A DNA stretch of 64,000 nt, from the NCBI GenBank assembly GCA_023138875.1, contig JAGLOO010000012.1, positions 62,001 through 126,000 on the forward strand, in the 5' to 3' direction. Source of the DNA: Bacteroidales bacterium (GTDB taxonomy: Bacteria > Bacteroidota > Bacteroidia > Bacteroidales > GCA-2748055). A program made the translations under genes and the position numbers. Of the stretch, positions 43,326-54,139 are shown in pieces (the first letter of the stretch is position 1; the number at the start of each line of letters is the position of its first letter). The notes beneath the pieces are model-generated. The model did no database searches. It was given only the letters and a program-made list of their open reading frames with translations, and had not been told where the DNA came from.

Positions 43326-43844
43326 ATGAAACGGACAATTCTCGGATGGGTGTTCATCATATTCACCCTCACAGCATTCAGTCAGCAGTCAGCTGTTGAT
43401 AAGGTATTTGATAAGTATAGTGGAAAGGAAGGATACACCACCGTCTATATCTCAAGTTTTATGTTCAATTTGTTGAATAGCCTTGAGATTGATGATCCTG
43501 AATATAATGAATTCAAGAAAGCCACCTCAGGGATCAATTCCATTAAGATACTTACCCAGAACGGGAGTGGATCAACCTCTTTTGGAAAGGAATTATTAAG
43601 TATGTTACCCAGGTCCGAATACAAAGAGCTGATGGTTGTGAAGGACCAGGAAGAAGAGGTCCTGTTCCTGGCAAAGGAGGATGGAGGAAGGATCTCAGAA
43701 TTCCTTCTGATCGTGAGTGGAGGTGGGGAAGATGCACTAATCGCCATACAGGGAGACATCGATCTGGAAAGCATCTCCAGCATTGCATCCGGACTGGATA
43801 TGCCGGGACTTGAAAACCTGGAGGACCTGGAAGAACGTCCCTAA
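43326..43844 (+). CDS. DUF4252 domain protein (second copy)
   Basis: 172 residues with signal peptide (RTILGWVFIIFTLTAFSQQ). The start of the mature part repeats the first copy: SAVDKVFDKYSGKEGYTTVYISSFMF and, later, ISEFLLIVSGGGEDALIAIQGDI. The two paralogues, clearly related but divergent, flank the sigma/anti-sigma pair, 24 bases after the latter. Its stop overlaps the stop of the convergent nuclease gene (CTAA at 43841-43844). Confidence 0.85.
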   Translation: MKRTILGWVFIIFTLTAFSQQSAVDKVFDKYSGKEGYTTVYISSFMFNLLNSLEIDDPEYNEFKKATSGINSIKILTQNGSGSTSFGKELLSMLPRSEYKELMVVKDQEEEVLFLAKEDGGRISEFLLIVSGGGEDALIAIQGDIDLESISSIASGLDMPGLENLEDLEERP

Positions 43845-45214
43845 TAATAGAGCATTTTTTCGACCTTATTGTTCTTAAGCCAGTTCTTGAGGATTTGTCG
43901 AATATCCCTGTTATCCAGGGCAGGATGAATACTATCAAGCATCTGGTCGATTCCCAGGTAAGTATCATTCACCGAGATATATCCATAACCCATATACATT
44001 CCTTTTTCAATACGCACAAGGCTGCGCTCATCAAGTTCCCTTCCCCTGTCAATGATCAGTACATTTCCGCGGTCCAGTTTCAAACCGTCCATGAGCGATT
44101 CAGCACGTTTGTTATACACTGAAACCGATTCTCCCTGAACACATGCTCCGTTGCATTGCCTGATGGTATGATGGAAACAGGCTCCGTCGGTCTGATACAG
44201 CCCACTTAATTTCTGACACAACCAGTTTTTCTCCACCATCCTGGTCAGCGCCTCCCGGGCCTCTTTTTTGTTGTTGAAGCATGTTATAGGATCATCGGGC
44301 GTCTCAGAGATTTTCTGGAGTTTGAAGGTGATGTAGCCATATTCGTCCTTCCCGGTATAAAGTCCCCAGTAGAAGAAGGACCTTTTCTGCGCCCGGTTAT
44401 ACATGGGTTTCTGGTCCTTGATTTCCCGTGACTCCTTTAGAAGAGCGATTAGTTCGCTGCCTGTCAATTCATACCCAATGGAGTGAATTCTTTGTTTCAT
44501 CTCCAGGGCCCGTTTGCTGGTGGTATTTCCCAAATGGGATAATATCCGGTGCCGGATGTTTTTGCTCTTACCTATATAAAGCAGTTGTTGTTTATCATCG
44601 AAGAAGTAATATGTCCCGCACTCTTCGGGAAGGTTCTCGATGTCATTAACCGTGAGGTTCTCGTTCAGGTTCTTATAGCGTCCGGCTGACTCGGATATCA
44701 GTTCAAGTTCAGCATTTCCGTTCTGCTGGTCACGGATTAGTTCAAACAGTTTAACGGTGGCGAGCGCATCTCCTGCAGCACGGTGCCGATCCTGGATTTC
44801 AATACCCAGCTCTTTACAGATCTTCCCCAGGCTGTAGGACTTGTACCCTGGAAATGCCTTTCGGCTTAACTTCACGGTACATAGGGTTTTTCTGTCGAAG
44901 TTAAATCCAAGCCGTTTAAACTCACTCTTTATAAATGAGTAGTCAAAGCTAACGTTGTGCCCGACGATGGTATGGTTTTCAGTACGTTTAACAATTTCCT
45001 TTGCTACCTCGTAAAACATTGGAGCATCGGCAACCATTTCATTGGTAATTCCCGTCAAACCGGTAATGAAATAGGGTATTGTTTTTTCAGGATTGAGAAG
45101 GGTTGCCCACTCATCCACGACTTTATTCCCGTCATGGAAGAAAATGGCAATTTCTGTTATTTTTTCGGATGCTGGACTTCCCCCTGTGGTCTCAATGTCA
45201 AGTATGGCAAACAT
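43841..45214 (-). CDS. DEDDh exonuclease fused to GIY-YIG endonuclease
   Basis: 457 residues. N-terminal DnaQ-like 3'-5' exonuclease domain (1-165): Exo I FAILDIETTGGSPA, Exo II TIVGHNVSFDYSF, Exo III HRAAGDALATVKLFE, all acidic residues present. Middle GIY-YIG nuclease (200-290): CGTYYFFDDKQQLLYIGKSKNIRHRILSHL, related to UvrC/Cho incision domains. The C-terminal ~170 residues have cysteines (CFHHTIRQCNGACVQGE) as in the UvrC Cys region. This architecture is annotated in Bacteroidota as an exonuclease-domain protein or Pol III epsilon-like; it probably acts in DNA repair, and its real substrate is unknown. Next on this strand upstream is the Thx-like gene. Confidence 0.9.
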   Translation of the reverse strand: MFAILDIETTGGSPASEKITEIAIFFHDGNKVVDEWATLLNPEKTIPYFITGLTGITNEMVADAPMFYEVAKEIVKRTENHTIVGHNVSFDYSFIKSEFKRLGFNFDRKTLCTVKLSRKAFPGYKSYSLGKICKELGIEIQDRHRAAGDALATVKLFELIRDQQNGNAELELISESAGRYKNLNENLTVNDIENLPEECGTYYFFDDKQQLLYIGKSKNIRHRILSHLGNTTSKRALEMKQRIHSIGYELTGSELIALLKESREIKDQKPMYNRAQKRSFFYWGLYTGKDEYGYITFKLQKISETPDDPITCFNNKKEAREALTRMVEKNWLCQKLSGLYQTDGACFHHTIRQCNGACVQGESVSVYNKRAESLMDGLKLDRGNVLIIDRGRELDERSLVRIEKGMYMGYGYISVNDTYLGIDQMLDSIHPALDNRDIRQILKNWLKNNKVEKMLYY

Positions 45215-45225
45215 TGCTCATCAGT

Positions 45226-45825
45226 CTACTCCTTGGCTTCACTATCCTCTTTCTTCTTGCTGCTTTTTGCAGGTTTGTCCTTTTTGGGTTGCGTGTTATC
45301 AGCTTTCGCTTCGGCTTTTGGTTCTGCCGCTTTCGCTTCGGTTTTTGGTTCTGCCGCTTTCACTTCGGCTTTTGGTTCTACTGCTTTCGCTTCGGTTTTT
45401 GGTTCTGCCGCTTTCGCTTCGGTTTTTGGTTCTGCCGCTTTCACTTCGGTTTTTGGTTCCTCCGTTTTCGCTTCGGTTTTTGGTTTCTTAGCTGCCGGTT
45501 TTTTTGTTGCGGGCTTTTCAGCGGGCTTTTCAGCGGGCTTTTCAGCGGGCTTTTCAGCGGGCTTTTCAGCAGCCTTTTCAGCAGCCTTTTCCTCTTTTAC
45601 CGGGGTGGCTTTAACCTGTTCTACCGCTGCCTCAGCCGGCTTTTCTACTGTTTCTTCAACCTTTGGACTCTCAGCTTTTGGTTTTGGACTTTCAACTTTT
45701 GGCTTCTCGACTTTTTTGGTAGTTGTAACAGTGCTGAATGCACGTTTTCTTTTCCGGGGTCTTAATACTCCAAATGATCCACTGAATAGTTTCCCTCTTC
45801 TGGTTTTCTTGTCACCTTTTCCCAT
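45226..45825 (-). CDS. Ribosomal protein Thx (bTHX) homologue with long Ala/Lys/Pro/Glu repeat tail
   Basis: 199 residues from ATG 45825. The first ~25 residues, MGKGDKKTRRGKLFSGSFG and following VLRPRKRKR, match the very small 30S protein Thx, which normally ends soon after. Here it continues for about 170 residues of low-complexity sequence: EKPA units (5-7 copies) and a 9-residue EPKTEAKAA unit (about 7 copies), then KKDKPAKSSKKKEDSEAKE. The tail resembles eukaryote-like lysine/alanine/proline-rich nucleic-acid-binding tails. It may change ribosome or nucleoid association (inference). An insertion element lies directly upstream (45901-46382) and may have separated the gene from its original promoter. 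Confidence 0.78.
   Translation of the reverse strand: MGKGDKKTRRGKLFSGSFGVLRPRKRKRAFSTVTTTKKVEKPKVESPKPKAESPKVEETVEKPAEAAVEQVKATPVKEEKAAEKAAEKPAEKPAEKPAEKPAEKPATKKPAAKKPKTEAKTEEPKTEVKAAEPKTEAKAAEPKTEAKAVEPKAEVKAAEPKTEAKAAEPKAEAKADNTQPKKDKPAKSSKKKEDSEAKE
45302..45490 (-). repeat. 27-bp tandem coding repeat, 7 units
   Basis: Seven units with consensus gctttcgcttcggtttttgg plus ttctgcc (plus strand), encoding EPKTEAKAA-like nonapeptides on the minus strand. Units differ at only a few bases, implying recent expansion, so copy number may vary between strains. Confidence 0.9.
45509..45592 (-). repeat. 12-bp tandem coding repeat, 7 units
   Basis: Five identical units GCGGGCTTTTCA followed by two variants GCAGCCTTTTCA/C, encoding EKPA or EKAA repeats. 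Continuous with the Thx-like gene. Confidence 0.9.
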
Positions 45826-45890
45826 GCTGATATTAATTTGTTTTTGGAAGGGCGAATATAAGAAAAATTGAGCGGGTGGGCAACCCGTTA

Positions 45891-46392
45891 GTCTTTTGGA
45901 CAGGGCCAACGCATTAAAAATTCGGAAATTAGGCTTCCGTCAACATTGGGCAGCGGAAAACTCATTGCACTGGACCCTGGATATGACCTTCAGAAAAGAG
46001 TCGAATTGTCCTTGCTGTTGTAGCTGATCTCTTTCTCTAAAATTCCCTTCTCCGTTTTTCAAGATCTGAATGTCACATCAGTGTTACATTTCAACCTGGG
46101 AAGCAGGATATAAGTGATCCACCAACTCTTTAAATATCAGTTGTATATAATCTGGATGGCAGCAAGCCTACCAAATATGAATGTCACAACATCGTAACAC
46201 TTGTATCTTCTGAAATGAAGATTCCTTCTTCCTGCTTTGTGCGATGGGACACCCTATTCAGGTTCTTCAAAGATTGAGATGATCTTACATCTTCTTGGTA
46301 GCCTCAAAAACAAACGGCTGGTGGCAGCCTGGGACAATGAGTTCCTGTTAAAAATCCTCAGAATTTAAATGCGTTGGCCCTGGTCTTTTGGA
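45891..46392 (+). mobile_element. Internally deleted ISAs1-family element (482 bp) with 10-bp target duplication
   Basis: Element 45901-46382. Ends are inverted repeats CAGGGCCAACGCATT (15 perfect bases; 45901-45915 and, inverted, 46368-46382) with imperfect extension over about 8 more bases. Flanking direct repeat GTCTTTTGGA at 45891-45900 and 46383-46392. CAGGG ends and 8-10-bp duplications are features of the ISAs1 family, and the inside encodes fragments of such a transposase. It is too short (family about 1.2-1.5 kb) to be active on its own, and so resembles a MITE or deletion derivative. Insertion was at the 3' end of msrB. Confidence 0.9.
45920..46368 (+). pseudogene. ISAs1-family transposase remnant (two C-terminal fragments)
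   Basis: Left fragment, frame from 45920 to the TGA at 46025: FRQHWAAENSLHWTLDMTF, matching the conserved R.HW.IEN.LHW.LDVTF block of ISAs1/H-repeat transposases. Right fragment, another frame from 46219 to the TAA at 46366: LLGSLKNKRLVAAWDNEFLL, matching the extreme C-terminus of the same family. The N-terminal catalytic part is missing. The centre also carries an imperfect repeat of TGAATGTCACA (46068 and 46178), with no clear coding sense. Confidence 0.8.
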
Positions 46393-46751
46393 ATGAAATC
46401 GATGGAAACAGAATTTACACAATGCCTGGTGTTTTTGGGAGTAAATCCTTCGCTGAGAAAAACATGTCCAAGATGTCCCTCACAATTAGCGCAGATGATC
46501 TCTGTCCTTTGACCATCCGCATCAGTCTCCCTTATTATTGCACCCTCAATTTCGTCGTCGAAGCTGGGCCATCCGCAACGACTGTCAAATTTATCATCTG
46601 ACCTGTATAATGGAGCATTACATTGCTTACATACATACACCCCTTTTTCTTTGTGATTGACATATTTTCCTGTCCATGGTTTTTCTGTCCCCTTCTGAAG
46701 GATCACATGCTCCTCAAAAGCCGAAAGTTTGTTATAGTTATCCGGATCCAT
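46365..46751 (-). CDS. msrB: Peptide-methionine (R)-S-oxide reductase
   Basis: 128 residues. Zinc CxxC pairs 41-44 (CKQC) and 87-90 (CANC); catalytic C111 in [13 protein letters not shown]; substrate motif CGWPSF. Reduces methionine-R-sulfoxide. There is no signal peptide, so cytoplasmic here. Residues 122-128 (KDQGQRI) and the stop are encoded partly by the duplicated target and partly by the inverted repeat of the inserted ISAs1 element; the native C-terminus probably ended a few residues after FIPK. It lies 30 bases after amrS, as the last gene of the AmmeMemoRadiSam operon. Confidence 0.93.
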
Positions 46752-46781
46752 AATGGTTATTTTTATTTGTAGCGGAAGAGT

Positions 46782-47891
46782 TCAATTCCACCTGCCGGAG
46801 ATTTTTTCACTGCAGTAATGGCAAATGCCATCCGTAATATGAATTTCGCTCACATTATACCCTGAACGGTCCACCAACTTTTGGTGACATTTGGGACAGT
46901 AGGTATCAATGGCACTGATGCCGGGAACGTTTCCAATATAGACGAATTTCAATCCCTCTGCAACAGCAATATCTTTTGCCTTCATCAGGGTGTTTACAGG
47001 GGTGGAGGGGAGGCGTTGAAGTTTGAATTGCGGATGAAACCGGCTGAAATGAAGGGGAGTGTCATCGAAACCATTGGCAGCAAGCCAGCCACACATCCTT
47101 CTAATCATGTCCAGGTCATCGGTCCAGGAGGGAATCACCAGGTTGGTAATTTCCAGCCAGACACCTTCATCTTTCAACGTTCGGAGGCTTGACAGAATGG
47201 GTTCCAGTTTCCCGGCATTGAGTTTCAGGTATATGGAGTCGTCCAATGATTTGAGGTCGATGTTGGCTCCGTCAATCACCTTGCAAAGATGAACAAGCGG
47301 CTCTTTATTTATAAAACCGTTGGAGATAAAGATATTTTTAATACCGGCGTCGTGGGCCAATTTGCCCGTATCGAATACATACTCATAGAATGTGATGGGT
47401 TCCGAGTAGGTATATGCAATGCTGGCACAGTTATACTTTAACGCCTGGGCTACAACCTTATCTGGCATCAGATCATGGTTCTGTGTCTCTTCCGGAGATG
47501 ATTGCGAGATGGTCCAGTTCTGGCAATTCAGACAGGCAAGGTTGCATCCTGCTGTGGCAATGGAGAATGCGTCTGAACCGGGAAAGAAATGATACAGTGG
47601 TTTCTTTTCGATGGGATCAATATGAATGGCGCAGGGATTTCCATATGCAATTGTATAAAGCTGTCCGTCATATACCCTGCGGTTGCGGCAATCGCTCAGT
47701 TCACCTTCACCAAGGGTACATTCGTTGGGACAGATCTGGCATCTGATCCCCTTGGGGGTTTCTGCCTGGTACATGGCCAGACGACTCCATTTCCATGGTT
47801 TATCGGGAATACCGGCCCGTGTATTCAAAGGACATAAAAATGCACCTGCAACACCACATACACCGGTTTTCAGAAACGTCCTCTTATCCAT
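46782..47891 (-). CDS. amrS: AmmeMemoRadiSam system radical SAM protein, with export signal
   Basis: 369 residues from ATG 47891 (the GTG one codon upstream at 47894 is less likely). N-terminus DKRTFLKTGVCGVAGAFL resembles a Tat signal with Lys in place of the first Arg of SRRxFLK. Radical SAM cluster motif CxxxCxxC in AGCNLACLNCQNW. A preceding CQICPNECTLGEGELSDCRNR block and the C-terminal four-Cys site (CPKCHQKL ... CHYCSEK) are typical of the pflA-like AmrS subgroup. Its substrate is unknown; the family co-occurs with Memo and AMMECR1, which are both here. An exported radical SAM enzyme would need its [4Fe-4S] centre loaded before Tat export. Confidence 0.88.
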   Translation of the reverse strand: MDKRTFLKTGVCGVAGAFLCPLNTRAGIPDKPWKWSRLAMYQAETPKGIRCQICPNECTLGEGELSDCRNRRVYDGQLYTIAYGNPCAIHIDPIEKKPLYHFFPGSDAFSIATAGCNLACLNCQNWTISQSSPEETQNHDLMPDKVVAQALKYNCASIAYTYSEPITFYEYVFDTGKLAHDAGIKNIFISNGFINKEPLVHLCKVIDGANIDLKSLDDSIYLKLNAGKLEPILSSLRTLKDEGVWLEITNLVIPSWTDDLDMIRRMCGWLAANGFDDTPLHFSRFHPQFKLQRLPSTPVNTLMKAKDIAVAEGLKFVYIGNVPGISAIDTYCPKCHQKLVDRSGYNVSEIHITDGICHYCSEKISGRWN

Positions 47892-47897
47892 CACATG

Positions 47898-50384
47898 CTA
47901 CCTTTTACGCAAGCGGGTTAATATATAGAGCCCGGTGGCGACATTAATTCCACAGAACAATATAAAAGTATTTGTAACACCGATCAAGGGCAGTATGAAC
48001 ACCACCGGGATAAAGGTTCCCAGGGCAGCTCCTGCCAGGTCGGCGCCATAGAGCCGTCCTATACCTGACAAACCATCTTTAACAGAGAGCGCCAGGGACA
48101 TTCCATAGACTGATCCGACGATCATTCCGGGCAAAAAGTTCAAAAAACCCAGAACCAGTTGACCCTGCAGGCGGTGAGTAAGCAGTTGATCGGATTTCAG
48201 TACGATGATCCCTACAGATACGATGATGGCCATGATCCACAACAATCCCGTAAACTTTAAAGGAGAAGGTTCATGCCATATGGTTTTCCACAACAGTATT
48301 CCGGCGACTATACCGGCCATGAAAATGGTGATCATGATGGGAGCTACCATGTAAGCAAAGCCGTAGAGCGACTGGACTACCATGATCAATAGGATCTGAA
48401 CACCAGCACCTGTGAATCCAGCAACGTACATGCCTGCTTTCAGCGGGGTATAAGAAAATAGCAGCATCAGGAAAACCAGCAGGCTTAATAAACCAGTATA
48501 AGTCAGTGAATTACTGTCACTTTTAGAATTCCAGATGGAAATACTATTAAAGAACAGGGTGGGCCATTGATCACTGTTGATCCTGGACTGCTCCATGTTA
48601 ATGCGATCAAGCAGTTGCTCACTGTCAAAGGTCAGGTGAGACATATCCAGGTAGTCCGGATGAACATAAGTGGTGGACAGTTTATGCTCCTTTAAAAGTG
48701 CCGGAAAATCTAGGGAAAGCGGTTTTCCGGAGGCCAGGAAATATGTGGCATAACCCGGAACAATGGCTACATAATCGAACACCTGTTTAAGAGTCTGGTA
48801 ATTAATGCTTAATAGCTGACTACCTGCATCATTAATATAGTTACCACCTGTAGATAATTGCATACCGAATATACCATCCGGAGACAAATGTGAGTTAACC
48901 AGCTCGAAGAATTCCCTTGTGAAGTACCTGTTCCAACCGATGGTATGAGGTTCCCCGGCTGCTGAGATAATAACATCATACTTCGTGGAATCGTCTTTAA
49001 TCAACCAGCTTCTGCCATCCAGATCAATAAAGTTGAAATCATCAACAACGGTGGCGGGGAGGTGTTTTAGGCCCATTCTGTAAATCCAGGGATTAGCCTC
49101 GCAATAATCAAATATTTCCGGTTTGTATTTGATCACTTCTGCTGAATTCCCCGAAAGACCACCACCGATTAGTAAAAACGAACCAGGATCCGGGTGTTGC
49201 AGAGCCGGGTAATGGACGGTTTCTTCCGCCCTGGCAAGATCAACGGAGTAGAGGACGGGGTTCCGGTCAAGATACCCTGTTACCTGGCCATCATGTGTTG
49301 TGATAGTCAGATTTCCATAAGGTGTATCCTTTGTCTCCATGATGGTCTCATTCTTATAGCGCAATCCTTCCACAGCATACCGGATTTCAGGAACCTGTAC
49401 CAGTCCGAAAATGACAATTCCCACCAGGATCAATATAATCCTTGGAAAGACCTTTGAAGGATAACCATAGATCAGTATCACAGAAACCACGGTGATTACA
49501 AACAAGAATGAAAGCACCTGTATGTTATCGAAAAAAAAGACCAGGATTAACCCGAACACTGCGCCTCCTGCGAGGGATCCCAGTGAATCGAGCATGTAAT
49601 AGTTGGCGTTCAGACGGTTGTCTTTAACGGCTCTTGATATGTAAGAAAAAAGAAAACCTGAAACCAGTGTAAACGGGAAGATCAACAATACAATATGGCT
49701 GATGGAGTTTATCATTCCGGGTTCATAACCCGGGAGGAAGATACACCTGTTTACAAAGATCAGAATCATGTATACGGCCATGGGAAAAAACCCCAGGATT
49801 AAAACCAGCTTCAACAGGGAAGCCTTTGAGATCCTGGCCCTATAGCCAGAACCAGCCCAGGCTCCGGCGGAAGTCAATATCATCCATATGGCCAGGAAAA
49901 TGCCAATAACAAGTTCATTTCCATGCAGTGTCTTGATGAACTCCCTTAATAATACCAGCTGGGCAATGATGCTAATAAATCCCAGCAGTAAGAAGAGGAG
50001 CTTCACCTGATGGGTTTTGAATCCCAGATGGGGTGTCATGATGGATACAGAGCGGGCAATTGCATCCCTTGATATGATTTTCTTAAAATATCCCAGATGC
50101 CTTGACAGATGAAAAAGTGAGACAAAGGCCAATCCGATTCCCATATCCACATGCCATTGCAGGGCTCTGTCGATCCAGGGAATACTCAATTTGTAATTTA
50201 CCCTGATTGCCAGGAATAGTCCAAGAATCGCAGAGGAACAGAAAAAGAGCAGCAGGAGGGTATTCCAGATCTTCCTGTGGTTCGATAACAGCAGGATTTG
50301 CATACGTACCATCACCAAACTTAACAGGTATGTCAGGATGAGAAGTATGCCGATGGAAATGACATGGTAGGGTCCCTGGATCAT
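47898..50384 (-). CDS. Polytopic membrane protein with spermidine-synthase-like domain
   Basis: 828 residues. N-terminal ~330 residues: about ten membrane helices. A Rossmann domain near 350-580: LLIGGGLSGNSAEVIKY, CEANPWI (acidic end of strand 2), FIDLDGRSWLIKDDSTKYDVIISAAGEP. Then another ~7-8 helices to the C-terminus. The domain is like spermidine synthase (SpeE), but the catalytic Asp expected after YDVII is absent (YDVIISAAGEP), so polyamine synthesis is unlikely and another aminopropyl-like or nucleotide-binding role is possible. It sits between the Memo/AMMECR1 fusion and amrS with ATGA overlap to the former and a 6-base gap to the latter, so it is part of the same system. Confidence 0.85.
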   Translation of the reverse strand: MIQGPYHVISIGILLILTYLLSLVMVRMQILLLSNHRKIWNTLLLLFFCSSAILGLFLAIRVNYKLSIPWIDRALQWHVDMGIGLAFVSLFHLSRHLGYFKKIISRDAIARSVSIMTPHLGFKTHQVKLLFLLLGFISIIAQLVLLREFIKTLHGNELVIGIFLAIWMILTSAGAWAGSGYRARISKASLLKLVLILGFFPMAVYMILIFVNRCIFLPGYEPGMINSISHIVLLIFPFTLVSGFLFSYISRAVKDNRLNANYYMLDSLGSLAGGAVFGLILVFFFDNIQVLSFLFVITVVSVILIYGYPSKVFPRIILILVGIVIFGLVQVPEIRYAVEGLRYKNETIMETKDTPYGNLTITTHDGQVTGYLDRNPVLYSVDLARAEETVHYPALQHPDPGSFLLIGGGLSGNSAEVIKYKPEIFDYCEANPWIYRMGLKHLPATVVDDFNFIDLDGRSWLIKDDSTKYDVIISAAGEPHTIGWNRYFTREFFELVNSHLSPDGIFGMQLSTGGNYINDAGSQLLSINYQTLKQVFDYVAIVPGYATYFLASGKPLSLDFPALLKEHKLSTTYVHPDYLDMSHLTFDSEQLLDRINMEQSRINSDQWPTLFFNSISIWNSKSDSNSLTYTGLLSLLVFLMLLFSYTPLKAGMYVAGFTGAGVQILLIMVVQSLYGFAYMVAPIMITIFMAGIVAGILLWKTIWHEPSPLKFTGLLWIMAIIVSVGIIVLKSDQLLTHRLQGQLVLGFLNFLPGMIVGSVYGMSLALSVKDGLSGIGRLYGADLAGAALGTFIPVVFILPLIGVTNTFILFCGINVATGLYILTRLRKR

Positions 50385-51895
50385 TTTCTTTTCTCCTCTC
50401 CAAATACGATGGCCTCGTAAACAAAGAGATCGGCGTCATTCCATCCATCCCATCCAATTCCGGCTTTTTCTCTGGCACAATGCCCGAGAATCTCCTCCGC
50501 ACTCCATCCCGTTTGCGTTGCAACATGAGGAAGGTATGTACCCGATTTGCCATCCTTTGTCATATATATACCATGCCGGCCCAGCTGGAATTCATCGATG
50601 GAATTGATCTTTTGTAAAGGAGTCAGAACCGATATCTCTATGTCAATATACTTCAGTTCGGGAGATTCAACAGGAGCAAAGCGGTGGTCGTGTGTAGCTG
50701 CAGCCAGTGTCATTTCCTGGACCACCATATAGAGCGGTTTTGAAGCAAAAAAATTTCCGATACAACCCCGCAATCGCCCCCCCATATAAAGGCTTACAAA
50801 TGCACCTGTCTGTTCCTTTAACGGATCTGATATTTTGTAAGCTGACAGATCGGGCAGTTCACCGGATCTGAGATATGATTCCAGTGTTTCCCTGGAAATT
50901 TCAAGCAATGCCTGCTTATCCACATCTTCAAACATGAACTGCAGGGATTCTTGTGGTACCTCGTGACCTGCGATGGCCCAATATCCAACCACACGCTGTT
51001 TATCTCCAATGGGTGAGTCACCCGAATTCCGATACAGAATCGGAGATATCTCCATATTGTCCCTTCGGTCGGACATATAGAGCATGGTTAAAATGGAACT
51101 CCAGCCACAACAGGGGGTAGCCAGATTCTGAACAGGTTTGTTACTATTCTTTCGCAGGGTATTGTAAAAATGCTCAGGATCTTTTGTAAGAATGGAATTC
51201 CCTGTTAGTCCATCGATGTGCACTGCATCCTGATAATCAGGATAATGGGAGAAATCCGAACTAATTATAAAGAGGTTATCCGGTGAAAAATAGGGCATAA
51301 GCGCTGCGGCCAGATCCCGGGCAGCAGAGACAGATGATGAACCCATGACAATGGGAATGATGGGAGGAGGTTTCTCAAAATGGTATTGAATAAAGGGTAC
51401 CTGGACTTCGATGCTGTGTTCCCTGTCATGTGCCTTGCTGTGATAATTGATGTTTTTATTGTTATCAATCAAAGCATTGGCGATTTCCATATTTACCCTG
51501 GCTTCACCCAGTGGAGTCTGGTAATGTCCAACCGAGTAGACAGAGGAACCATTGAAGTGTTCCCTGTGTGATGAAGCGATGATAAAGATATTGTTGTAAT
51601 CAGCATCCTTCGGAATGCTTTTATATCCGGACGCCGCCACAATACCTGAATATGCATAGCCTGCATGGGGAACGATCAGGCTCTGGATTTTTCCTTCCAG
51701 CTTTGCAGGGCTGGCTTTTGCAAATAGCTCCTGAAGCGACAACTCCAATGCCTTTTTACTGTGAGGATAAAAAGAACCTGCCACTGCTGGCTGCCTGTTT
51801 ATCGGTGTAAACGGATCCTGGGCCAGGAGAATGGTTGATGCTGAGACCATCAGTCCTGCGCAGAGGGCCATATGGATTATGAAGTGTCGGATCAT
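50381..51895 (-). CDS. Memo + AMMECR1 fusion (AmmeMemoRadiSam proteins B and A), exported
   Basis: 504 residues with signal peptide (IHMALCAGLMVSASTILLAQ). Memo-like domain about 35-300: IVPHAGYAYSG (H77), ASSHREHFNG (H110/H113), EHSIEVQVPFI, SDFSHY and TPCCGW; the His/His/Cys set is the metal site of Memo, a non-catalytic relative of class III dioxygenases that binds copper in human MEMO1. AMMECR1 domain about 325-500: GAFVSLYMGGRLRGCIGNF, VQEMTLAAATHDHRF and ISVLTPLQKI. Usually these are separate genes; here they are fused and secreted. First gene of the minus-strand operon Memo-AMMECR1 / membrane SpeE-like / amrS / msrB. Confidence 0.9.
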   Translation of the reverse strand: MIRHFIIHMALCAGLMVSASTILLAQDPFTPINRQPAVAGSFYPHSKKALELSLQELFAKASPAKLEGKIQSLIVPHAGYAYSGIVAASGYKSIPKDADYNNIFIIASSHREHFNGSSVYSVGHYQTPLGEARVNMEIANALIDNNKNINYHSKAHDREHSIEVQVPFIQYHFEKPPPIIPIVMGSSSVSAARDLAAALMPYFSPDNLFIISSDFSHYPDYQDAVHIDGLTGNSILTKDPEHFYNTLRKNSNKPVQNLATPCCGWSSILTMLYMSDRRDNMEISPILYRNSGDSPIGDKQRVVGYWAIAGHEVPQESLQFMFEDVDKQALLEISRETLESYLRSGELPDLSAYKISDPLKEQTGAFVSLYMGGRLRGCIGNFFASKPLYMVVQEMTLAAATHDHRFAPVESPELKYIDIEISVLTPLQKINSIDEFQLGRHGIYMTKDGKSGTYLPHVATQTGWSAEEILGHCAREKAGIGWDGWNDADLFVYEAIVFGEEKRK

Positions 51896-51961: not shown

Positions 51962-52420
51962 TTATCCGTACTTGAAGAAATCCCTGTACTCCAGGTAAAA
52001 TTTCTCGAGCCTCATCATCTTCTCATACATGAACTGATGGGCGGTCGGCCAGGTATTACGGTTGTATATATCTACTCCCTGAATTTGCAGGTAAATCCGG
52101 CTTACAGACTTACTATTCTCACGAATATATTCAATATCCCAGATCATGGGCTCCTGCATCACATCTTCCATGATTTTTTTTACCGATTCAAGCTTTTCGA
52201 ACAGCTCAAGCCGTTTGTCCATGTTCTTGGTCTCCAGGTCAATCCCGACCTGGGCAACCTCTCGATCCACATAAAAACGCAGGTTCAGCGCTTTAATACC
52301 GGTGTTTGTGAGTAACCAGTTTCCGGGCATCTTCTTTCTTGTACGCCGGCCCGATGAGATGGTTTTGAACCGGTCCCAGAACTCCTCTCTCAGTGCTTTT
52401 GCTTCCTCTTTCGAATACAT
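51962..52420 (-). CDS. DUF4268 domain protein
   Basis: 152 residues, the single DUF4268 domain common in Bacteroidota: EEFWDRFKTISSGRRTRKKMPGNWLLTNTGIKALNLRFYVDR ... IWDIEYIRENSKSVSRIYLQI ... FYLEYRDFFKYG. No signal peptide. Related domains occur at the C-terminus of restriction-endonuclease-like proteins, but no catalytic PD-(D/E)xK is seen in this one. Same strand as the AmmeMemoRadiSam operon, 66 bases upstream of it, and divergent from the GMC oxidoreductase. Function unknown. Confidence 0.85.
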   Translation of the reverse strand: MYSKEEAKALREEFWDRFKTISSGRRTRKKMPGNWLLTNTGIKALNLRFYVDREVAQVGIDLETKNMDKRLELFEKLESVKKIMEDVMQEPMIWDIEYIRENSKSVSRIYLQIQGVDIYNRNTWPTAHQFMYEKMMRLEKFYLEYRDFFKYG

Positions 52421-52534: not shown

Positions 52535-54139
52535 ATGCAACACGACTTTGATTATATTGTAATAGGGTCTGGTTTCGGAGGATCCGTCTCAGCACTCAGG
52601 TTATCGGAAAAGGGATATAAAGTGCTGGTGATTGAAAAGGGAAAACGCTGGGATCCGGAGCAATTCCCAAAAACCAACTGGAACCTTAGAAAGTGGATGT
52701 GGTTACCCCTGTTTCGATTCCATGGATTTTTTAAGATGACCATCATGCGTCATGTGGGGATCCTCAGCGGAGTTGGGGTAGGAGGAGGATCCCTGGTTTA
52801 TGCCAATACTTTGCCTCGTCCGGAGAATACTTTTTTTCATTCTGGCAGCTGGTCGGGATTAACCGACTGGAAAAAGGAGCTTGATCCACATTACAGGGAA
52901 GCTGAAAGGATGCTTGGTGCCACGGAAAATCCCGTATTATATGATTCAGACAAAGCCTTGAAGGAGGTTGCAACAAGCTATGGTAAATCGGATCGCTTTG
53001 AACCTACCCGGGTTGCGGTATTTTTCGGAGAACCTGAGCAGGTTGTCCCCGATCCTTACTTCGGGGGAAACGGACCACAACGTTCTGGCTGTAACTTCTG
53101 CGGAGCATGTATGACAGGATGCAGGTACAATGCAAAAAACTCCCTGGATAAGAATTACCTTTACCTGGCAGAGAAGAGGGGAGTCCGTGTCCTTGCCGGT
53201 AAAAAAGTGATTCGGATACAACCATCCGGAAAACAAGATGGTAGTGAAGGATACCGGGTTACTATAAAGGATTCCACCAGGTTATTCAAACGCACATCGC
53301 AGATAACATCCCGGAGTGTGATCCTGGCCGGAGGCGTTCTCGGTACGGTCAGGTTGTTGCTGGATATGAAACGGCGGTACCTGGCCGGACTCAGTGACAT
53401 GGTGGGAAACCAGATCAGGACCAATAATGAAAGCCTTGTCCTTGTTCACTCAAGGAAAAAGGAGAGGGATTATTCGAAAGGTGTGGCCATAGGTTCCATT
53501 TTTCCACCCGATAAGGATACCCATCTGGAATCAGTTCGATACGGAAGCGGATCCGGATTCTGGAAAATGCTGGGAGTGCCCCTAACCCATGGCGGAAGTG
53601 TAGCCGGACGTGTTTTAAAGTTGCTGTGGAAGCTGATTACCAGGCCTGCTTCCTGGTTGAGGATTTATTTTACCAGAGATTTCGCCAGGGAATCAATGAT
53701 CCTTCTGTTTATGCAACACCTGGACAGTACCCTCAGATTCAAGCGTGGTGCTCTCAACATGTGTTCAGTGGTTTCAACAGGATCTCCACCTTCAGCATTC
53801 ATGCCTCTTGCAAGGGATCTGGCTGAGGCAACATCAAAGGAAATAGACGGTAAACCATTCATAATGATAACCGAAGCCCTTACGGGAACTCCAACAACAG
53901 CCCATATCCTTGGTGGATGCGTAATTGGAAGGGATTCCGGTGAGGCAGTGATTGATAAGGACCAGCGAGTCTATGGATATCAGAACATGTATGTTTGTGA
54001 CGGTAGTGCCATCTCGTCCAATCCGGGAGTGAATCCGGCCCTTACCATTACCGCCATGACTGAAAGGGTAATGAGTAAAATTCCCCAAAAAAATAGTTTT
54101 GTATCTTGCTTTTCATTAGCAAATCGAATTCTGCCATGA
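52535..54139 (+). CDS. GMC-family FAD oxidoreductase (cholesterol-oxidase-like)
   Basis: 534 residues. N-terminal FAD dinucleotide motif DYIVIGSGFGGSVSALRLSEKG, second GMC motif GVGVGGGSLVYANTLPRP, a cysteine cluster RSGCNFCGACMTGCRYNAKN (C-x2-C-x3-C, residues ~188-200) that may hold an Fe-S cluster, AGGVLGTVRLLL and the C-terminal GTPTTAHILGGCVIG and SNPGVNPALTITAM. Oxidises an alcohol or lipid-like substrate; electron acceptor unknown. Its stop TGA overlaps the ATG of the DUF1360 gene (ATGA). Confidence 0.9.
   Translation: MQHDFDYIVIGSGFGGSVSALRLSEKGYKVLVIEKGKRWDPEQFPKTNWNLRKWMWLPLFRFHGFFKMTIMRHVGILSGVGVGGGSLVYANTLPRPENTFFHSGSWSGLTDWKKELDPHYREAERMLGATENPVLYDSDKALKEVATSYGKSDRFEPTRVAVFFGEPEQVVPDPYFGGNGPQRSGCNFCGACMTGCRYNAKNSLDKNYLYLAEKRGVRVLAGKKVIRIQPSGKQDGSEGYRVTIKDSTRLFKRTSQITSRSVILAGGVLGTVRLLLDMKRRYLAGLSDMVGNQIRTNNESLVLVHSRKKERDYSKGVAIGSIFPPDKDTHLESVRYGSGSGFWKMLGVPLTHGGSVAGRVLKLLWKLITRPASWLRIYFTRDFARESMILLFMQHLDSTLRFKRGALNMCSVVSTGSPPSAFMPLARDLAEATSKEIDGKPFIMITEALTGTPTTAHILGGCVIGRDSGEAVIDKDQRVYGYQNMYVCDGSAISSNPGVNPALTITAMTERVMSKIPQKNSFVSCFSLANRILP

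Follow-up and report, generated by a model that had tools for sequence, protein, structure and literature searches.

The stretch analyzed here (the window) comprises 64,000 nucleotides of a Bacteroidales bacterium (GenBank assembly GCA_023138875.1, contig JAGLOO010000012.1, positions 62,001 to 126,000) and hosts a run of four genes on the minus strand, extending from 51895 down to 46365. These genes encode a Memo-AMMECR1 fusion, a polytopic SpeE-like membrane protein (SpeEm), a radical S-adenosylmethionine (SAM) protein (rSAM) and the methionine-R-sulfoxide reductase MsrB. A sequence-only reading of the window had described a complete AmmeMemoRadiSam operon with this content and order. All four open reading frames (ORFs) are found at these positions, and their families are confirmed by Pfam and NCBIfam. 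The genes of Memo-AMMECR1 and SpeEm overlap by 4 bp, those of SpeEm and rSAM are 3 bp apart, and 30 bp separate rSAM from MsrB. Within this operon-like run, all three NCBIfam models of AmmeMemoRadiSam are matched above their cut-offs (A, 149.9 bits against 99; B, 233.5 against 26; rSAM, 349.2 against 220). The genome, which is 99.64% complete, encodes TatC (G000:C48) and has a second Memo match in an unfused, leaderless rSAM-Memo-AMMECR1 run elsewhere (L002), whose rSAM is likewise matched by TIGR04337.

The Memo-AMMECR1 fusion (50381..51895) is a predicted exported protein of 504 residues, and both of its domains are above cut-off in Pfam (Memo, PF01875, 182.6 bits; AMMECR1, PF01871, 155.4 bits) as well as in NCBIfam. 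Its putative Sec-type signal peptide, approximately residues 1-26 (51818..51895), was read by eye, as was the leader of rSAM described below; hydrophobic leaders are also present in the fusions of relatives. Both the fusion and its signal peptide are thus as the sequence-only reading had them. The Memo domain covers residues 35-307 (50975..51793) and the AMMECR1 domain, with its LRGCIG motif, residues 332-498 (50402..50902). Residues H77, H110, C263, H160, H217 and D214 of Memo and the R-G-C-x-G motif of AMMECR1 are conserved in 47 or 48 of the 48 aligned rows. H77 and H110 align with H49 and H81 of human MEMO1; C263 can be matched to C244 by its position in the family only, because the human alignment ends before C244. 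In MEMO1, H49, H81 and C244 bind iron or copper (PMC11081632). A metal site in the Memo domain is supported by this conservation; the redox modification at the cell surface that had been suggested for the system is a hypothesis. In the Desulfobacterota-type loci L084, L085, L091, L092 and L094, the exported partner is AMMECR1 alone (244-255 residues, with a hydrophobic leader; Pfam-checked in L094), and no Memo was detected there by the profile used.

rSAM (46782..47894, 370 residues) matches the Radical_SAM family of Pfam with 51.1 bits. Its core (46785..47741) contains an N-terminal cysteine motif, the CxxxCxxC motif and a C-terminal CxxC pair, and the radical-SAM cysteines are invariant in the aligned relatives. 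The closest solved structure to this core is the pyruvate formate-lyase (PFL)-activating enzyme (3c8f, 59 bits). The core is preceded by a leader similar to those of the twin-arginine translocation (Tat) pathway ((M)MDKRTFLKTG..., 47811..47894), which the sequence-only reading had also recognized. The twin-basic motif KRTFLK, the hydrophobic stretch and the presence of TatC in the genome are the sequence features of a Tat substrate and make rSAM a candidate for this route. Among the rSAMs of 80 named loci, selected as described below, the motif KR/RR/RK-x-[FL] occurs in 71 (44 KR, 19 RR and 8 RK), one leader is Sec-like, seven proteins have no leader and one (L107) lacks its N-terminus. The Sec-like leader belongs to L098, an Omnitrophota locus in a genome where TatC was not found. 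A search in three frames upstream of the seven leaderless rSAMs returned no hidden Tat leader, with only two KK-type strings, outside any leader context, in L104. In L018, the leadered rSAM is immediately followed downstream by the beginning of another family member that has no leader (positions 1-328).

SpeEm (47898..50384, 828 residues) lies between the two enzymes. That a polytopic protein with a spermidine-synthase-like domain occupies this place is borne out by Pfam (Spermine_synth, PF01564, 47.7 bits, residues 387-550), by the NCBIfam model of fused spermidine synthases and major facilitator superfamily (MFS) proteins (NF037959, 53 bits, cut-off 40) and by structure prediction. The AlphaFold model, built on an 18-row alignment (pLDDT 83.4, pTM 0.84), has by our own count 10 long helices, the SpeE-like domain and then seven more helices, giving 17 transmembrane helices (TMs). 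From the N-terminus, these form a His-rich module of three TMs with conserved histidines, possibly binding heme b and absent from short homologues (50025..50384); an MFS-like N half with one extra TM (TM4-TM10, 49395..50024); and, behind the SpeE-like domain (residues 346-595, 48600..49349), one extra TM with the MFS-like C half (TM11-TM17, 47901..48527). Foldseek retrieved spermidine synthases, with 1uir as the best match, and VIA-align on the Foldseek list aligned residues 121-828 to MFS transporters (VMAT2, Z 26.4 over 336 residues at 3.7 A; FLVCR2, 24.2; NarK, 24.0). SpeEm is therefore modelled as an MFS-fold transporter with the SpeE-like domain inserted between its halves. Since each of the two halves that flank the domain has one added helix, the MFS topology would be kept and the domain would lie outside. 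The loop charges point to the same side: with TM borders set by hand from the model, odd loops are richer in K and R in all 18 SpeEm sequences (19 against 4 in the window protein). From these data the SpeE-like domain is predicted to be periplasmic.

In the SpeE-like domain, as read by eye from the alignment, the ribose-side acid (E or D) is kept in all 18 SpeEm sequences and D456 in 17 of them; in the solved synthases the former meets the ribose and the latter the adenine. When compared to 1uir, 3anx and the SpeE of P. falciparum, SpeEm retains neither the Asp pair of D-x-x-D-P, which is the catalytic one in SpeE, nor the acid of GGG[DE]G. SpeEm also scores below the cut-offs of the aminopropyltransferase equivalogs (NF002956, 78.6 of 472; TIGR00417, 52.8 of 249.55). 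A periplasmic domain of the adenosyl-binding type on a modelled MFS transporter points more to the supply of a cofactor than to polyamine chemistry.

The 80 loci are the best 80 of 579 confirmed in a survey with an rSAM profile, in which SpeEm was not used as bait. By record title, they come from Bacteroidota, Ignavibacteria, Deltaproteobacteria or Desulfobacterota-type bacteria, Stahlbacteria, Omnitrophota, one Pseudomonadota and four archaeal bins; names of bins may be wrong. Memo-AMMECR1, SpeEm and leadered rSAM recur together in Bacteroidota, Ignavibacteria and Desulfobacterota-type records, and because the neighbourhood recurs across phyla the association is not due to chance. Clustering of the neighbours returned rSAM in 79 loci, SpeEm in 60 and Memo/AMMECR1 in 56, and every other cluster in at most 13, including DNA-ligase-like, SecA-like and DapA-like ORFs (named by eye). 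Memo/AMMECR1 is not in every locus, and L098 shows only rSAM and SpeEm. SpeEm is encoded in the genome for 66 of the 72 leadered rSAMs versus none of the seven leaderless ones: it lies in the same locus in 59 cases and elsewhere in the genome in seven more. The genome of L107 also has SpeEm. In the record L030 of the named strain Mangrovibacterium marinum DSM 28823, SpeEm and a leadered rSAM are accompanied by a Memo-AMMECR1 ORF of 378 residues without its first part. In L031, L049, L065, L077, L082, L093 and L103 the leadered rSAM and SpeEm are at different loci of the same genome, which contig ends may explain in some cases.

Among 61 genomes searched for SpeEm, 22 match at E 0.001, 21 of them strongly and one weakly (G026, 28 bits). 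The strong matches are found in 14 of the 18 genomes of the genus, the window's own included, and in seven genomes from other families of the order, and each of the 21 is adjoined, within short flanks, by a gene for Memo-AMMECR1, leadered rSAM or both. In an even sample of 148 genomes of the phylum (at least 90% complete), the SpeEm profile has matches in 45 at E 0.001, but only five of these exceed 300 bits; the next score, 122, comes from the SpeE-like part alone. All five have a leadered rSAM beside SpeEm (in G213, SpeEm is split over two contigs), and each retains, in addition, an rSAM of this family without a leader. With the rSAM profile, 46 genomes of this sample were matched and 46 hits exceeded 140 bits: five leadered, L002, 38 leaderless by their N-terminus, L166 with its N-terminus out of frame, and G198 cut by a contig start. 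At the genome level and with relatedness ignored, SpeEm and leader are associated with P = 1.8e-9 (Fisher test). At the level of the class, 119 of 197 genomes match the exported rSAM, and the best 30 loci comprise 24 leadered proteins, five leaderless and one cut. A search for SpeEm in 27 of these genomes found it in all 22 whose rSAM is of the exported type (21 with a leader, plus the cut protein) and in none of the five with a leaderless one; three further leadered rSAMs had already been counted in the phylum sample. The predicted linkage of a SpeE-like membrane protein to Memo, AMMECR1 and rSAM genes thus holds in relatives, where SpeEm is the partner that tracks the rSAM leader, and computation likewise supports the envelope location proposed from the secretory-type leaders. 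From the sequence data, we consider it very probable that the window encodes an exported, conserved AmmeMemoRadiSam-type system.

The relationship between leader and SpeEm was also followed along a tree of 139 rSAMs, built with a quick method. It leaves out truncated and duplicate sequences (L001, L017, L025, L026, L079, L107, L136, L137, L166 and L110-L119) and rows without a usable core. The 93 leadered rSAMs fall in one group of 101 rows (starred in the tree), together with eight that have no leader. Among these eight, the branch of L002 is long and unresolved, and the others make up three nested sets, L089/L104/L105, L087/L088/L101 and L056. SpeEm was not found in the seven genomes of these nested sets. 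In the first of them, Memo/AMMECR1 is also leaderless where present (L089 and L105), and in L056, L087, L088 and L101 Memo-AMMECR1 keeps its signal peptide beside a leaderless rSAM. As two SpeEm-less leaderless lineages keep this signal peptide, SpeEm seems to follow the location of rSAM and not that of Memo-AMMECR1. Assuming that the root is outside the group, the absences in the nested lineages would be losses.

Several lineages have redox modules attached to the system. SpeEm of L108, one locus only, carries a C-terminal Fer4_5 region (PF12801, E 2.3e-11), which we take to be comparable with the membrane iron-sulphur (Fe-S) proteins of NosR/NapH type. In genus g86, four of the five full-length rSAMs (L177, L178, L179 and L181) have a CxxCH motif between Tat leader and core, and in L180 the first cysteine of the motif is lost. 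Only CxxCH in this position, in this one genus, was counted as possible heme attachment. Cytochrome c assembly proteins are present in all nine genomes asked, three of which are outside g86. Many Bacteroidales SpeEm proteins have the N-terminal three-TM module with conserved histidine; six of seven such modules returned matches to DUF4405, Ferric_reduct or cytochrome b561 (E 0.0027-2.2), below cut-off and accompanied by unrelated families at similar E, and the module of the window protein had no match to these three. These separate modules are hints that electrons may reach the enzyme from membrane or periplasm.

The computed features, namely gene set, leaders, linkage, joint absence of leader and SpeEm, topology, fold and residue pattern, can be combined in a model of export, SAM binding, transport and electron path. 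Memo-AMMECR1 would be exported by Sec, and rSAM, an Fe-S protein that is folded before export, in most cases by Tat. SpeEm would most likely move SAM or a close adenosyl compound outwards and pass it to the exported rSAM; alternatively, it may clear the nucleoside product of rSAM. The likely source of electrons would be redox modules of the membrane or periplasm, fused to SpeEm or to the enzyme in some lineages. We give an even chance to this explanation as a whole, that is, to a periplasmic AmmeMemoRadiSam set in which SpeEm exports or presents SAM or clears the nucleoside product. That SpeEm supplies or presents SAM, a reading based on its fold, its residues, the side of its domain and its absence together with the rSAM leader, falls somewhat short of an even chance. 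A general scheme of periplasmic radical-SAM chemistry, with a dedicated MFS exporter of SAM whose SpeE-like domain offers it to a Tat-exported rSAM, and with lineage-specific membrane or c-type redox modules as electron suppliers, can be offered only tentatively.

A number of observations weigh against this model. We know of no periplasmic pool of SAM. KR and not RR is the most frequent leader motif; of 50 genomes checked (drawn from the 80), 46 have a detected TatC, but these include all seven with a leaderless rSAM, and three of the four where it was not found (L046, L077 and L080) have Tat-type leaders. The signal peptides of Memo-AMMECR1 next to leaderless rSAMs contradict a strict one-compartment expectation. 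SpeEm was not found for six of the 72 leadered rSAMs (L035, L037, L050, L062, L079 and L096), and gaps in draft genomes cannot account for all of these, since L037 is a chromosome-level record. When relatedness is considered, and five second rSAMs (L002, L170, L173, L174 and L175) are also left out, only four independent pairs differ in the leader, and SpeEm agrees in 3.9 of them on average (P = 0.125). Conversely, seven pairs differ in SpeEm; the leader changes with it in 3.6 and is the same in 3.4, so that SpeEm can vanish while the leader stays. An automatic topology count on 103 sequences of the family, cruder than the hand-set one due to missed TMs and untrimmed starts, gave the same side in 80, a tie in seven and the opposite result in 16. 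A CxxCH motif is found in 31 of 143 rSAMs scanned, but in 30 of them it follows the core start, nearly always as part of the C-terminal CxxC pair, and it precedes it only in L135; in six further rows from the class-level loci (L184, L187, L190, L191, L194 and L196) it coincides with the radical-SAM motif. Finally, cytochrome c assembly is permissive rather than specific, because it is present in genomes without the CxxCH insert.

Some of these points favor a different reading, in which the rSAM leader is a membrane anchor or recruitment signal and the enzyme works at the cytoplasmic face, near SpeEm. Radical-SAM enzymes depend on SAM and on a strong reductant, both normally cytosolic, and the prevalence of KR and RK motifs and the leadered genomes in which TatC was not detected are in line with such an anchor. 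We nevertheless regard it as unlikely, as the Tat-type motif is followed by a hydrophobic stretch, a Sec-like leader takes its place in the genome of L098, CxxCH is inserted between leader and core in one genus, and both the exported-type partner and the SpeE-like domain go with a location outside.

Other alternatives concern SpeEm itself. It could be a periplasmic transferase of the same pathway that uses SAM (for methyl, aminocarboxypropyl or similar groups) and does not supply it. Its SpeE-type Rossmann domain with the adenosyl-contact acids, and the conservation of EExxH-type and N-R-x-[FY]-T-type motifs over the 18 aligned rows, would agree with this activity. However, the acid of GGG[DE]G and the two catalytic aspartates have given way to other residues, SAM would still be needed outside, and the absence of SpeEm tracks the leader of rSAM and not the export of Memo-AMMECR1, which together leave such a transferase improbable. 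We attribute similarly little probability to SpeEm as exporter or importer of a substrate, a product or a spent nucleoside of the pathway (5'-deoxyadenosine or similar to methylthioadenosine, MTA) in place of SAM. The MFS fold of the model and the crystallization of solved relatives of the domain with MTA and decarboxylated SAM (dcSAM) would fit this role, which alone does not explain where the exported rSAM obtains its SAM. An exported module of polyamine synthesis that adjoins the AmmeMemoRadiSam genes by chance is extremely improbable: the Spermine_synth match of Pfam would be expected of it, but SpeEm is far under the aminopropyltransferase cut-offs, has lost the catalytic aspartates and is linked to these genes across phyla. 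On the cut-offs and the lost residues, we rejected a polyamine role for SpeEm.

The last gene of the run, MsrB (46365..46751, 128 residues), is above the cut-offs of its models (SelR in Pfam, 150 bits; TIGR00357, 127.9 against 113.05; NF004036, 209.8 against 179). As the sequence-only reading stated, msrB ends the operon at a spacing of 30 bases; the window MsrB, however, has no leader, because the stop codon of rSAM lies in the MsrB reading frame 30 bases upstream. Among relatives of the genus with room to see it, MsrB follows rSAM in 11 out of 11, as in the window, and carries a hydrophobic leader in all 11. MsrB was not found in the approximately 300 bases behind rSAM in six out of six relatives from other families of the order, and the 80 named loci, many of which are short, did not show it either. 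We therefore rejected MsrB as a general member of the system, and its linkage, unsupported as a general rule, is a genus-level partnership seen only within the genus of the window.

Downstream of msrB, the minus strand encodes a low-complexity protein with Ala/Lys/Pro/Glu repeats (AEKPAEKPAEKPA..., 45226-45909) and a DnaQ-type exonuclease fused to a GIY-YIG domain (43841-45214). A DUF4268 protein (51962-52420, minus strand) lies 66 bp upstream of the operon in the same direction, and in L024 a DUF4268 gene is next to a different membrane SpeE-like gene and a leader-bearing msrB. A GMC-type oxidoreductase follows on the plus strand (52535-54139), with cholesterol oxidase as its best NCBIfam match (602 bits, under the cut-off of 850).

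To our knowledge, no reaction has been assigned to AmmeMemoRadiSam, the biochemistry of human MEMO1 and AMMECR1 is not settled, and radical-SAM enzymes are usually regarded as strictly intracellular. An exported copy confines the substrate to what the periplasm can reach. Moreover, the exported set brings a specific partner, so that its function can be probed by deletion and analysis of the envelope, and its co-occurrence with a leaderless rSAM in the same genome, in all five cases of the even sample, offers a natural paired comparison. If the enzyme is truly outside, SAM chemistry can no longer be assumed to be restricted to the cytoplasm, and a SAM exporter has to be considered as a concrete candidate. 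Among the matches listed in our literature search, the scope of which did not extend to preprints and most subscription papers, we found no paper that describes export of an AmmeMemoRadiSam set, places a radical-SAM enzyme in the periplasm or assigns MFS-SpeE fusions a function. Burroughs and others, in their 2019 article on the PCAD-Memo superfamily in J Biol Chem, reportedly discuss Memo gene neighbourhoods and may already mention this arrangement.

As an exported arrangement that includes SpeEm, the set represents a variant of AmmeMemoRadiSam that we did not meet in the literature searched. Its components can each be compared with known proteins. Human MEMO1 has the same Memo domain and corresponding ligand residues, but unlike the window fusion is intracellular and is not known to have an rSAM partner. 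The PFL-activating enzyme, the nearest solved relative of the rSAM core, has no leader and is cytosolic. SpeEm shares the MFS fold and the SpeE-like domain with the fused proteins of NF037959. In 14 of 15 rows of other membrane SpeE-like proteins, representing about 10 different proteins, a crude TM finder places the domain at the C-terminus, preceded by 5-13 TMs and followed by none, whereas in SpeEm it lies between the MFS halves. Only this position is used as a contrast, because the 15 generic controls did not agree in side (more K and R on the other side in eight and on the same side in seven, with five proteins counted twice). As for the system, the window set agrees with AmmeMemoRadiSam (TIGR04335, TIGR04336 and TIGR04337) in its three proteins above cut-off and in the conserved metal, AMMECR1 and Fe-S motifs. 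It differs in the fusion of Memo to AMMECR1 behind a signal peptide, in the export-type leader of rSAM and in the addition of SpeEm. Leaderless sets are expected to be cytosolic, a property outside the definition of the models, and with export-type leaders on both of its enzymes the window set appears to depart from them in this respect.

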